From: Faecalicatena orotica
Lineage (GTDB): Bacteria; Bacillota; Clostridia; Lachnospirales; Lachnospiraceae
Direction: 5' to 3'
DNA length: 64,000 nt
Assembly (NCBI RefSeq): GCF_003149245.1
Contig: NZ_QGDL01000021.1
Span: 18,014-82,013, forward strand
Every line of letters starts with the position of its first letter. Positions within the stretch are counted from its first letter, which is position 1. Shown piece by piece: positions 26,757 to 58,627 of this stretch. The position numbers were made by a program, and so were the translations under genes. The notes below the pieces were generated by a model. That model worked only from the letters and a program-made list of their open reading frames with translations. It was not told the DNA's origin and searched no databases.

Positions 26757-26781
26757 AATAATAACAATTATTTGGAGGTAA
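26757..26781 (+). repeat. Left copy of the 25-bp inverted repeat bounding the variable glycan region
   Basis: Perfect 25-bp match, in inverted orientation, to 58603-58627. The first 16 bases, AATAATAACAATTATT, are a dyad (AATAAT and ATTATT around AACA), and TTGGAGGTAA follows. Similarity stops sharply on both sides, as expected for a recombination site. It lies 14 bp after the sugar transferase stop. Confidence 0.85.
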
Positions 26782-26829
26782 ATACAAAATTAATTATTAA
26801 TGGTAGTTTTTATTACACGCTCCCCGATA

Positions 26830-26963
26830 ATAAACGAGTAGTAAAATTCGTAAATAATAGAGAAGACCCATTTAGGTGACTTCCATTAACTATTGCTACT
26901 CTGTGACAATAGTGGAAGCGACAAATATACTTCATACTACTATTCTTGAGGCTACTCGTTTAT
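26830..26963 (+). other. Nested inverted repeats next to the left recombination repeat
   Basis: ATAAACGAGTAG (26830-26841) matches CTACTCGTTTAT (26952-26963) in inverted orientation. Between them, CTTCCA/TGGAAG and CTATTG/CAATAG (26880-26918) form a second hairpin. The 26743-27145 gap holds the 25-bp repeat, an orphan 44-codon ORF (26745-26879) and this structure; I see no promoter of good quality. It may be a leader RNA of the plus-strand cluster or a remnant of a mobile element. Confidence 0.5.
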
Positions 26964-27145
26964 ATATAAAAGTTGCCAAGGGGTGTTCTCAATACTTTTA
27001 CGAAATTAAGAGTGTGATTAAGGGGTGCCGATGGAAAAATGTTTAAATATTATTGTTAAGAAACTCTGCTAAGTTGATTAAAGAAATAAATCCATGACTA
27101 AAAAGTCTGTAGTTTGAGATCAGTTAGATTAAGGGAGTGTAGTTT

Positions 27146-28297
27146 ATGAAAAACAAGATACAAATGAAAACAGACGAAGAAGCAATACGCGTTGCTCACA
27201 TTGTTGGGAAAATGGTTGGAGGAGGATTGGAGTCAACAGTTCTTAACTATTATAGATATATTGATCGTTCAGCAATCCAGTATGATTTTCTAATAGATGA
27301 AGATTCAACTTACATTCCTGAAGAGATCGAGCAGCTAGGAGGACATATAATCTTAATTCCACCTTATCAAAACTTGTATTCATATCAGAAAAAGCTTTAT
27401 AAGATTTTGAAAGAAAATAAGTATCCTCTCGTATATTCTCATATAAATACTTTATCTGTTTTCCCCATGTTTGCGGCCTGGAGAGCAAACATTCCAATTA
27501 GAGTGGTACATAATCACAGTACTGCTGGGAAAGGAGAATGGAAAAAGAATTTAATAAAGTATAGTTTACGGCCACTTTCTAAAATATTTCCAACTACATT
27601 ATGTGCTTGTTCAAACTTTGCTGGTGAGTGGATTTTTGGTAAAAGAACTATGGATAGTGGTAAAGTAACTATTTGGCAAAATGCGGTAGAAATTGATAAG
27701 TTTCTTTTTAATAAAGAAAGAAGAGATATTACCAGATGTGCATTAGGAGTTAATGACAGATTTGTGATAGCACATGTTGGAAGATTTATTCACCAAAAAA
27801 ATCATGGTTTTATTATAGATATTTTCAATGAGATTTACAAAAAGAATTCGAACGCTATTCTACTTTTAGTGGGTAATGGCGCACTAATGCCTATTATTAA
27901 AGAAAAAGTACATGCTCTTGAATTAGACGATGTCGTTATTTTTACAGGTAACAGAAATGATATAGAGGACATATATCAGGCAATGGATGTTTTTATTATG
28001 CCAAGTTTTTATGAAGGATTAGGAATGGTTGCTGTTGAAGCGCAGATTTCGGGGCTCCCAGTCATTTGTGCAAATACAATACCTATAGAGGCAAAGATAT
28101 GTGAAAATATGAAGTATTATTCTTTAAAAGATTCTGCTACAAAGTGGGCAGAGGAAATATTACAATATGCAGATGGTTTTGAAAGAAAAAATATGAAGAA
28201 TGAAGCAGTTGCTTCGGGATATGATATAAACACTGCTGCCAAAAAAATGACTCTGTGGTATAAAAAGCTATTGAGTTTAAAAGCGGGAGAAATTTAA
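27146..28297 (+). CDS. Glycosyltransferase, GT4-like
   Basis: 383 residues of GT-B fold. The N-terminus has the GGxE-type loop (GKMVGGGLESTVLNYYR); the C-terminal half has HVGRFIHQKNHGF and the GT4 E-x7-E segment EGLGMVAVEA (near 290-300). It adds a sugar to the lipid-linked repeat unit in the cytoplasm. First gene of the plus-strand cluster and clearly more AT-rich than the sugar transferase upstream. Confidence 0.88.
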   Translation: MKNKIQMKTDEEAIRVAHIVGKMVGGGLESTVLNYYRYIDRSAIQYDFLIDEDSTYIPEEIEQLGGHIILIPPYQNLYSYQKKLYKILKENKYPLVYSHINTLSVFPMFAAWRANIPIRVVHNHSTAGKGEWKKNLIKYSLRPLSKIFPTTLCACSNFAGEWIFGKRTMDSGKVTIWQNAVEIDKFLFNKERRDITRCALGVNDRFVIAHVGRFIHQKNHGFIIDIFNEIYKKNSNAILLLVGNGALMPIIKEKVHALELDDVVIFTGNRNDIEDIYQAMDVFIMPSFYEGLGMVAVEAQISGLPVICANTIPIEAKICENMKYYSLKDSATKWAEEILQYADGFERKNMKNEAVASGYDINTAAKKMTLWYKKLLSLKAGEI

Positions 28298-28298
28298 A

Positions 28299-56220: not shown

Positions 56221-56234
56221 CGATCTACACCTCC

Positions 56235-57503
56235 TTACAGTTTCAAAATCTCTTCAACATACTTTTTTACTGATACATCACGAGTCAAATTATTAACCAA
56301 ATTCTCACGGCCTCTTTTTCCCATCTCGATTACCTTATTTGTGCCATCATTTTCTATAAACCATTTTATTTTAGCGATTACATCTTCGTAATCGCCTGGG
56401 TCAGAACACAATCCGCCTTTAGTTTCCTCAATAATGCAACGAATTTCACTATCTTTTTCCAGTACAGCGAGTACACTCTTGCCAACTGCAGCAATTCCAT
56501 AATATTTACTTGGACAGCTAACGCCTTTTATCCCCTTTGTATTTACACACCAGTGAACATCACCCGCATTCAAACTATAAATCAAATCATTTTTGTCCTG
56601 ATAAGGAATGAAGACTACATTATGCATGTTCTTTTCTTCTTTATAAGATACTAGCTTATCAAATACGGAACCTGCCCCGACAAACACGAATGCAACCTCT
56701 CGACCAATCGCAGTCTTGGTTCCCGGTTTAAACATCTCAATAACTTTCATCAAATTTTCCAAATCATAGTATAAGCCAATATTACCGGAATACATTATGA
56801 TGAATTTGTCTACTAGCCCATACTTTTCTTTAAAAGCTACGACCTTAGGATGATCTGCTTCCACTGGATAGATTTCTTTCTCATTAATCCAATTGTTGAT
56901 CATTACTGTCTTAGGCACTTTCTGACCTTTAAAACGGTTATGTACGGTCTGAACTAAATCTCGGCCAACTGTGATTATCAAGTCGCTCTGGCGGCAACTG
57001 AACTTATCGAAAAACATCATTACACCAGTAATAAGTTTATTGTTACTGAAATTAATCGCCAGTATCTGCTCTGGGTTGAAATCCTGAATATTATAAATAT
57101 ACTTTGCGTGTTTCATCCATTTTCCCCACACACCCAGCAAACCTCCGAGAATAGGCGGCTGAGAAATAGAAAACACATAGTCTTGTTTACCAACTTTGAA
57201 AGTTGCCAGCATAGAACCAAAGAAATAGGTTAATATATTCTTGATGCGGCTTCTCGTGTCGGTCTTACTAAATTCAGGAACTCGAATTCTAAGAATCTCT
57301 ACATTATTTATACTTTCTCTATAAAACCTCTGTGTCTTATACTCATCTTCCACGATCCCTAAATAACTAGGTACAACACAAATCACTGTGATATCAAATT
57401 TTTCCTGCATTCCTTCCGCCAACTCTCTCAGGATCTGACCGGTAGAGGCAGTATCCGGGATGTAATAATGAGCATAAATCAACAAATTTTTCTTTCCACT
57501 CAT
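56235..57503 (-). CDS. Glycosyltransferase, GT4-like (WbuB type)
   Basis: 422 residues. YAHYYIPDTASTGQILRELAEG, QPPILGGLLGVW and YNIQDFNPEQ are typical of WbuB-like enzymes, often N-acetyl-hexosamine transferases acting second in a repeat unit. First intact gene of the minus-strand cluster, directly after the ugd remnant. Confidence 0.9.
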   Translation of the reverse strand: MSGKKNLLIYAHYYIPDTASTGQILRELAEGMQEKFDITVICVVPSYLGIVEDEYKTQRFYRESINNVEILRIRVPEFSKTDTRSRIKNILTYFFGSMLATFKVGKQDYVFSISQPPILGGLLGVWGKWMKHAKYIYNIQDFNPEQILAINFSNNKLITGVMMFFDKFSCRQSDLIITVGRDLVQTVHNRFKGQKVPKTVMINNWINEKEIYPVEADHPKVVAFKEKYGLVDKFIIMYSGNIGLYYDLENLMKVIEMFKPGTKTAIGREVAFVFVGAGSVFDKLVSYKEEKNMHNVVFIPYQDKNDLIYSLNAGDVHWCVNTKGIKGVSCPSKYYGIAAVGKSVLAVLEKDSEIRCIIEETKGGLCSDPGDYEDVIAKIKWFIENDGTNKVIEMGKRGRENLVNNLTRDVSVKKYVEEILKL

Positions 57504-57625
57504 TCATTCAGATCCTTTCCTTACTTATCATCCGGGTAGAGCATCGGGATTACACCTACTTTAGTACTACGATTTATACGATTCCTTTTCACATTTTCTC
57601 CTGCTATAGAATTCTGCATGTCTTG

Positions 57626-58523
57626 TTAGTCCCTTTGGAAAATATCTCTTGTATAAACCTTATCCTTCACATCGTCCAGGCAACTGCCATATCTATTCGC
57701 AATGCTTGCATTGCTCATTGACTTAAAATTTGCCAAGTCATTCACAACCACAGAACCGAGGGAGGTTTCACCATCTTCCCATGTCGGCTCATATATTACA
57801 ATGGTCGCCCCCTTAGCCTTGATGCGCTTCATGACACCCTGATTGATCTGCTGCGTATTCAGCCCCTTCATCTCCGCATAGGTGTCCAGCTCATTGAAAT
57901 ATGCAACACGCAGAGCCAGAAATGTATTGGCAAAGAGCTTTACGGCCTCTGCTTCAGTAAATCCCATAAACAGCGTATCAATGCACCATCAGCCAACAGC
58001 TCTGCAAAGACCTTCTCAGCATCAACCAGTCGTTAGTCATTCATATCTGTGCCCATGATAATATGGGACGGGTACAAGTTATCGTAGAAAGCCTTGGATT
58101 CACACAAAAACTCCGGGCTAAAGATGATATTTTTGCTGCCGAACTTCTCACGTACAGACTGTGTATATCCAACTGGAATGTTAGACTTGATAACCATGAC
58201 GGCGTGGGGGGATACTCTATTACTAGCTTGATCACCGCTTCAACAGCAGATGTATCAAAGTGCTGTGTCCGGCTGTCGTAATTTGTCGGGGTTGCGACTA
58301 CCACAAAATCCTCATCCGAGTACGCTGCTTTCGCATCCAGTGTGGCTGTCAGATTCAGTTCCTTTTCCTCAAGATATTTTTCAATATAGTCATCCTGTAT
58401 GGGCGATTTTTTATTGTTAATCAGCTCAACTTTTTCAGGCATAACATCTACAGCTATGACCTTATTGTGCTGTGCTAAAAGCACTGCCAGAAATAGTCCT
58501 ACATAACCGGTATCGGCTACTGC
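57626..58523 (-). pseudogene. ugd: UDP-glucose 6-dehydrogenase remnant
   Basis: Homology to Ugd is clear but broken. The N-terminal TGYVGLFLAVLLAQHNKV segment has Asp where the Rossmann motif needs Gly, and no proper start. A frameshift lies in a six-C run (minus strand; 58206-58211); after it the frame reads VMVIKSNIPVGYTQ and FSPEFLCESKAF. A nonsense codon (58033-58035) stands where Glu is expected before RLVDAEKVFAEL. A small deletion shifts frame near 57985, and NTQQI is joined directly to QGVMKRIKAKGA (near 57845), losing about 100 or more codons, including the catalytic Cys region. No functional enzyme can result. Confidence 0.92.
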
Positions 58524-58602
58524 ACACAGAGCAAGGCAACAGAGGAAGACCAACTTCACCTGTCGCTTTGTTTAGAACCTTCTGTATCACACAAATCCCC
58601 CC

Positions 58603-58627
58603 TTACCTCCAAATAATTGTTATTATT
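58603..58627 (-). repeat. Right copy of the 25-bp inverted repeat bounding the variable glycan region
   Basis: Complement of 26757-26781 over exactly 25 bp; the next base on each side differs. It lies between the ugd remnant and the fkp promoter, so inversion would leave fkp and its promoter untouched. Confidence 0.85.

Follow-up and report, generated by a model that had tools for sequence, protein, structure and literature searches.

The DNA analysed here is a stretch of 64,000 nucleotides (the window) from Faecalicatena orotica (contig NZ_QGDL01000021.1, positions 18,014 to 82,013), which carries a capsule-type gene locus with a perfect inverted repeat. The two copies of the repeat, the 25-mer AATAATAACAATTATTTGGAGGTAA, lie at 26757-26781 on the plus strand and at 58603-58627 on the minus strand, are 100% identical and delimit a segment of 31.8 kb. 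To the left of the segment are three plus-strand genes, which we regard as the fixed part of the locus: a CpsB/CapC family protein (23792..24541; PF19567, E 6e-97), an ATPase with PF13614, for which the name CpsD is inferred from position (24582..25265), and the initiating sugar transferase (25330..26742; PF02397, E 2e-66). The latter is the last gene before the repeat, the gap between its stop at 26742 and the left copy being 14 bp. These genes are preceded by a plus-strand promoter match, TTGACA-17-TAGACT (23665..23693), which is a consensus match only. On the other side, outside the right copy, there is a conserved plus-strand gene for a fucose pyrophosphorylase/fucokinase-like protein (58770..61829; PF07959, E 2e-96), which is 88% identical to its counterpart in F. 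faecalis, where the same repeat core is found at the same place before the same gene. A strong promoter match at 58659 (TTGTCA-17-TATAAT) points away from the segment, toward this gene.

The segment itself contains two convergent clusters of glycan genes. The plus-strand cluster, called 'on' here (27146..38256), encodes glycosyltransferases, a pyruvyl transferase, GT11, LicD, a cytidylyltransferase, an FrhB-like protein and two polytopic membrane proteins, the latter being Wzx/Wzy candidates by hydropathy count, with no Pfam match (31500-32963, approximately 10 helices, and 35085-36614, approximately 9 helices). The minus-strand, 'off' cluster (39985..57503) encodes GT4 and GT11 glycosyltransferases, an acyltransferase, an aminotransferase, dehydrogenases, a GH88-like protein and a weak FUT8/NodZ-like protein. 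It also has a Wzx-type flippase (39985-41424, minus strand), the only flippase or polymerase named by Pfam in either cluster, and a Wzy candidate of about 7 helices by hydropathy (45462-46781, minus strand). Judged from hydropathy, the polytopic membrane proteins in each cluster fit a flippase and a polymerase. An IS256/Mutator-type transposase gene (38637..39878, minus strand; PF00872, E 4e-111) is located between the clusters. The first 'off' gene, encoding a UDP-sugar dehydrogenase (57626..58559, minus strand), is broken, with PF03721 and PF00984 pieces in two open reading frames (ORFs; 58041-58559 and 57626-57967). A preliminary description of the window had spoken of two complete clusters in opposite orientation, which is correct for the orientation and not for the completeness. 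The domain scan took in 40 window proteins of 106 listed ORFs, and the sole PF02397 initiating transferase among these 40 stands outside the repeats. Upstream of the capsule promoter, Wzz-like, sortase and LytR-CpsA-Psr genes follow each other in a row (19924-22635), and the polymer may be attached to the wall.

The preliminary description was right about the repeat, its perfect identity, its distance from the transferase, and in holding that a match of this length exceeds chance. The 25-bp pair is the longest perfect inverted repeat in the window with copies more than 1 kb apart, the longest inverted repeat in 40 second-order Markov simulations of the window was 14-19 bp, and a zero-order model predicts 5e-6 pairs of 25 bp. 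Other repeats of the window (seed 14, length at least 20) are 77-91% alike. A search of the whole 5.7-Mb genome returned the 25-mer only at this locus, in these two copies, even allowing up to 2 or 3 mismatches. We rejected a chance repeat on the basis of the 100% identity, the genome-wide uniqueness and the simulations. The exact 25-mer had no match in the species-level genome collection, which possibly does not include the window's own genome. The core of the repeat, AATAATARCAATTATT (26757-26772 in the left copy), has no other exact copy in the genome; two one-mismatch copies (C8:62862 and C14:101804) look like background, the closest tyrosine recombinase matches on their contigs being approximately 22 and 10 kb away.

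It could be argued that the repeat serves as a leader, regulatory or ribosome-binding, or as a transposon terminal repeat, and plays no role in recombination. It does contain GGAGG, which resembles a ribosome-binding site, and there is an IS256-type transposase inside the segment. However, neither copy is followed within 40 bases by the start of a listed ORF of at least 80 amino acids, some 12 kb separate the transposase from the nearer copy, and there is no target-site duplication of a composite transposon outside the two copies, whose flanks differ when compared by eye. The preliminary description would have been overturned if the repeat were a common leader of many unrelated loci, but no exact core was found at unrelated operons in seven genomes, all copies being confined to the capsule locus. 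Moreover, as detailed below, the core marks breakpoints between species and recurs beside a recombinase. We consider this explanation very improbable.

We propose, with a probability of about 0.78, that the 31.8-kb segment is a capsule selector, in which recombination between the inverted copies would invert the segment and swap the polymer cluster behind the shared genes. What makes this interpretation very likely is that inverted copies of a conserved sequence recur beside a tyrosine recombinase in the relatives. Inversion would place the other cluster behind the shared promoter, CpsB, CpsD and the initiating transferase; the fixed side would account for the promoter and the transfer of the first sugar, and each cassette would bring its own flippase, polymerase and glycosyltransferases. 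The predicted site would have an Xer/dif-like plan consisting of ATAA, an asymmetric 6-bp spacer and TTAT, here with TTGGAGG on the cassette side. The pattern ATAA-N6-TTAT, found here, resembles the dif core of the XerC/XerD-dif system, any binding arms being putative. The spacer is TAACAA here and TAGCAA in Diplocloster, and is 7 bp long in some relatives. Because the spacers of the two copies face each other, the predicted outcome is inversion, not deletion.

The core marks a family of sites. We searched 397 genomes of the bacterial family with the 25-mer, allowing up to 3 mismatches, and obtained matches in 11 genomes, while the reversed control gave 0. The core AATAATAACAATTATT or AATAATAGCAATTATT occurs in seven of these, in one case with A for the last T of the next stretch; the matches in the other four (G124, G136, G350 and G391) are without the core and look like chance. 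In seven genomes, exact copies of AATAATARCAATTATT are confined to the capsule locus, which in F. faecalis is represented by three contigs. A single exact core is present in 26 further genomes of the family, a number close to the background given by the reversed control, which had one copy in 16 genomes and two copies in none. The genera compared (Faecalicatena, Hungatella, Diplocloster and Murimonas) are Lachnospiraceae.

The position of the core is conserved as well. It is located 40-50 bp past the aligned transferase end in H. hathewayi, H. effluvii, D. agilis, D. modestus and M. intestini, and likewise behind the transferase in Lachnoclostridium An169 and in a metagenome-assembled genome, where it has one extra base and the contig ends just past the site. 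With the window included, the core was found behind the homologous transferase in 8 of 10 genomes inspected, a count that left out the homologs of G422 and G423. Each of the five relatives whose locus is spanned has a distal site that matches the transferase-side site perfectly, in inverted orientation, over 18-26 bp; the two sites are 28.9 (H. effluvii), 41.2 (D. agilis), 47.5 (D. modestus), 27.2 (M. intestini) and 97.3 kb (H. hathewayi) apart. The comparison of related genomes, proposed in the preliminary description with regard to orientation, showed the core behind the transferase, its inverted partner and an adjacent recombinase in five relatives. Both Diplocloster loci have a third, middle site with one mismatch, AATAGTAGCAATTATT, and such three-site loci would be multi-way selectors. 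Within the 97-kb segment of H. hathewayi we saw only two 2-mismatch matches, which are not convincing as a further site. The same segment contains a second tyrosine integrase, with a zinc ribbon (L025:14028-15335), and may have been enlarged by a mobile element.

Comparison of sister species shows that sequence similarity breaks at these sites. The loci of D. agilis and D. modestus have collinear flanks, with blocks of 86.7 and 87.6% identity, that reach to the left site and set in again at the right one; the cores are at 9995 and 51189, and the blocks stop at 10037 and restart at 51179. The only DNA matches in their interiors are 1.2 kb by the middle site and one inverted gene (65%). Between H. 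hathewayi and H. effluvii identity ends at 9279 and resumes at 106535, the cores being at 9263 and 106537, and the interior contains one inverted match (74%). In the right flank shared by the window and F. faecalis, DNA identity starts at 58609, inside the site.

The cassettes were also compared at the protein level (ORFs of at least 120 amino acids, at least 45% identity over 60% of the query). The three M. intestini genes directly behind the transferase correspond, inverted, to the three genes directly inside the recombinase-side site of H. effluvii (86, 79 and 66%), and the three D. agilis genes behind the transferase match recombinase-side genes of F. faecalis (75, 78 and 62%). Both three-gene cassette starts hence occur in opposite slots, which is what inversion predicts. 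The first D. agilis cassette gene has further counterparts in the window, in the form of the earliest intact gene of the 'off' half (70%), and in D. modestus, about 1 kb inside the distal site (62%). Two single-gene matches to the window are in the same orientation. The window's broken dehydrogenase gave only a weak match of 48 residues to that of Murimonas, which was not used. In F. faecalis three contigs, C1 with the fucokinase flank, C42 with the recombinase flank and C46 with a cassette start, share exactly 111 bp from the first base of the site, an overlap indicating that the fourth core copy of this assembly represents the same sites overlapping. One cassette start is thereby joined to two flanks in this assembly, which could be due to mixed orientations or to a duplicated cassette start.

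The almost complete lack of DNA similarity between the interiors of sister species with collinear flanks, together with the broken first 'off' gene of the window, would also agree with the inverted repeat being a relic, where cassettes have been exchanged between strains at the sites and rapid phase switching is not the main role. We find this distinctly unlikely, since in all four loci with two sites on one contig (the window, H. hathewayi, H. effluvii and M. intestini) the sites are inverted and not direct, homologous cassette starts are found in either slot, with opposite orientation, and five relatives keep the recombinase next to the distal site.

This enzyme, a tyrosine recombinase with PF00589 and PF02899, was recognized on a 12-kb contig of F. 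faecalis, where two outward-facing sites enclose it. Orthologs with 53-62% identity to the F. faecalis protein are found 0.2-0.8 kb outside the distal site in five of the five spanned relatives, one per genome; the next best proteins by E-value are about 28-30% identical. The enzyme is Xer-like in carrying both domains, and differs from XerC/XerD-dif in that its gene stands beside its own site. Eight of the 397 family genomes contain a near-full-length match (E <= 1e-50). Two or more exact cores were present in 7 of these 8 genomes versus 4 of the 389 others (Fisher p 9e-12), a value that is not independent because six of the eight recombinase genomes supplied the site and the query, which leaves G238, with two cores, and G282, with none, as the new ones. 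Of the four genomes with at least two cores and no recombinase, only that of the window has both cores on one contig. In the species collection, 8 of 12 near-full-length recombinase loci at 52% or higher identity (L100-L111) had an exact core in the stretch searched. The F. faecalis recombinase is joined, between the outward-facing sites, by a gene for an AAA-ATPase-like and PD-(D/E)XK protein (L023:8128-9783). A recombinase fragment of 133 residues with 60% identity and a TGA inside occurs in three further genomes of the family (G166, G029 and G371; L204, L205 and genome G371); the two fragments inspected had no core within 4 kb, except for one match with 2-3 mismatches in L204.

More distant recombinases (39-42% identity; two from Enterococcus and one from Heliobacterium) adjoin inverted repeats of 22-29 bp, which have the same pattern with a 7-bp spacer. 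The inverted-repeat search left out L113, L115 and L117, and L119 is a gene piece at a contig end. In Enterococcus sp. 5H (L114:9866-13052) the repeat is 29 bp long and flanks a SIR2 and STALD gene, and this defence-type gene may be phase-variable. The 27-bp repeat of Enterococcus moraviensis, AATAATACGCAATTATTTGGAGGTTTT (L116:8132-10849), encloses 1.7 kb with one whole ORF and most of another, whereas the 22-bp repeat of Heliobacterium chlorum (L112:9965-13613) surrounds two convergent ORFs, one without a Pfam match. The capsule recombinase family as a whole comprises 2822 proteins at E <= 1e-40 among 7994 candidates scored. A recombinase tree was discarded, its rows including wrongly extracted ORFs (branch lengths 8.6-10) and the family not forming one clade.

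Whether the capsule selector still operates in this strain is a separate matter. As stated in the preliminary description, the window encodes no recombinase; neither PF00589 nor PF00239 has a match on its contig. The genome search for recombinases that it recommended yielded 18 PF00589 and 9 PF00239 matches, one of the nine below the cut-off, and did not yield an ortholog of the relatives' recombinase. Two features by which invertons are recognized can be compared here. Two near-identical inverted sites are present both in the window (25 of 25 bp) and in the five relatives (18-26 bp); a cognate recombinase next to the site is absent from this genome and present at the distal site in five of five spanned relatives. 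As the recombinase is missing from the assembly, we class the window as a recombinase-less locus that works, or once worked, like an inverton. We infer that the switch is either locked after losing its enzyme or operated in trans. The module may have been excised between directly oriented sites, a route suggested by the location of the F. faecalis module between two outward-facing sites; the switch would then be locked in its present orientation unless a recombinase acts in trans.

The opposite possibility is that the switch is active in this strain, either through another recombinase of its own acting in trans or through a module missing from the 98%-complete assembly. The arms are still 100% identical over 25 bp, the 'off' genes after the first one are open, the 18 PF00589 and 9 PF00239 matches offer candidates, the F. 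faecalis recombinase is on a separate 12-kb two-site contig, the kind of piece that assemblies can lose, and capsule inversions of Eggerthella lenta are likewise reported without an adjacent recombinase (PMC13174815). Against these stand the absence of the ortholog, the lack of any further exact core in the genome, with one-mismatch copies that look like background, and the fact that the best own match to the recombinase family has different repeats. This match, on contig C15 (L099:9597-14848), has nearby a perfect 36-bp inverted repeat unrelated to the site, with copies about 4 kb apart, which is likely to be a separate invertible segment. In view of its 28% identity and its own repeat, we rejected the C15 recombinase as a driver in trans; the other recombinases of the genome were not inspected singly. 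Activity in this strain appears to us unlikely, if less so than the relic explanation, and it is doubtful that flipping is still possible.

Several observations weigh against the capsule selector interpretation. It must be noted that flipping is predicted from the assemblies compared, none of which shows the other orientation in any species, and that no recombinase ortholog is present in this assembly (none at E <= 1e-50; best 28% identity, contig C15). The cassette starts in opposite slots could also be due to repeated horizontal exchange between strains. The first gene of the 'off' cluster is broken, the later 'off' genes being open. Regarding transcription, the preliminary description had seen a promoter for the plus-strand cluster and none for the other one. 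The match at 23665 is there, and no minus-strand promoter match was found in 58000-59000 outside the right repeat copy. However, a match within the segment, at 26903 (10 of 12 positions), in a stretch with 4 promoter matches observed vs 2.3 in shuffles, belongs to the plus cluster, which may have its own promoter.

Other adverse points come from the relatives. Core and inverted repeat were both absent beside the recombinase in four of four stretches searched (L102, L104, L107 and L110), and one genome with the full recombinase (G282) has no exact core anywhere. The core is missing behind the transferase in two of the 10 genomes inspected, ABMPRH (G424) and An427 (G427); in ABMPRH the only core found faces the cassette beyond the recombinase. 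The cores of An169 are on different contigs, as are the two cores of G238, one of the new genomes with the recombinase. The middle and distal sites of Diplocloster are in direct order, thus deletion is conceivable there, too. In F. faecalis, none of the three sites with known outer flank follows a transferase, the transferase matches are 30% identical at full length or 36-41% and partial, and there was no CpsB match, an empty result that proves little. Finally, the title of the Murimonas record is UNVERIFIED_CONTAM, and contamination is estimated at 11 for H. effluvii, 8 for H. hathewayi and 7 for D. modestus. Taken with these reservations, the architecture of a switch exchanging the clusters, as put forward in the preliminary description, is supported by the conserved site, the relatives' recombinase, the breaks of identity and the opposite slots; present flipping is not, the recombinase being absent.

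The closest precedent for this locus appears to be E. lenta, for which a 2026 preprint (PMC13174815) reports megabase-scale capsule inversions with a 16-bp repeat, GATAAGCGCGGTTATG, 2-Mb segments and a transposon-like inversion of 32.5 kb, and found no adjacent recombinase. There, large inversions between short inverted repeats rearrange capsule clusters; here inversion is predicted. The repeat GATAAGCGCGGTTATG shares the ATAA-N6-TTAT plan with the site described here, and the letters differ otherwise (9 of 16 equal by eye). E. lenta belongs to another phylum and is reported with no recombinase adjacent, whereas the relatives studied here carry one and the predicted switch is compact and placed behind a fixed transferase. 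The preliminary description had considered the scale to be unlike that of known capsule switches. This view has to be given up, because E. lenta is reported to invert 32.5-kb and 2-Mb segments that rearrange capsule clusters (PMC13174815).

Capsule variation through site-specific inversion, which is only predicted here, is described for Bacteroides fragilis, where capsule promoter regions invert and a large capsule case is driven by the tyrosine recombinase Tsr19 (PMC3090145). Unlike the short invertible promoter segment of B. fragilis, the segment in the window spans 31.8 kb with two polymer clusters, and the promoter match at 23665 is outside. The hsdS shufflon of B. fragilis rearranges the target-recognition parts of one protein and has a tyrosine integrase next to several inverted-repeat sets (PMC3090145). 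The three-site Diplocloster loci are similar to the shufflon in having multiple sites and a neighbouring tyrosine recombinase, and would swap whole operons instead.

What is new, on the sequence comparisons made here, is that the core marks a family of sites that stand beside a recombinase in relatives. No inversion of capsule operons in Lachnospiraceae was described in the literature titles and abstract openings searched, a search outside which most subscription journals and bioRxiv preprints fall. We think it somewhat more probable than otherwise that Lachnospiraceae hold an undescribed family of capsule selectors, in which a dedicated Xer-like recombinase would flip blocks of 27-97 kb, plugging one of two, three or more operons behind a fixed promoter and transferase. 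In some lineages, including that of the window, the selector would have been frozen on one capsule after loss of the recombinase, and the Eggerthella inversions may depend on a recombinase with this class of site.

Such switches, with their short sites and long segments, would often escape short-read pipelines. The site core and the recombinase family together provide a simple handle to search for them in Lachnospiraceae, and the recombinase family suggests the type of enzyme to look for in E. lenta. The capsule of a gut bacterium determines the phages, antibodies and host cells that it encounters. If our interpretation is true, exchanging a whole polymer, in place of switching a single promoter on and off, would equip a clone with ready-made alternative surfaces.

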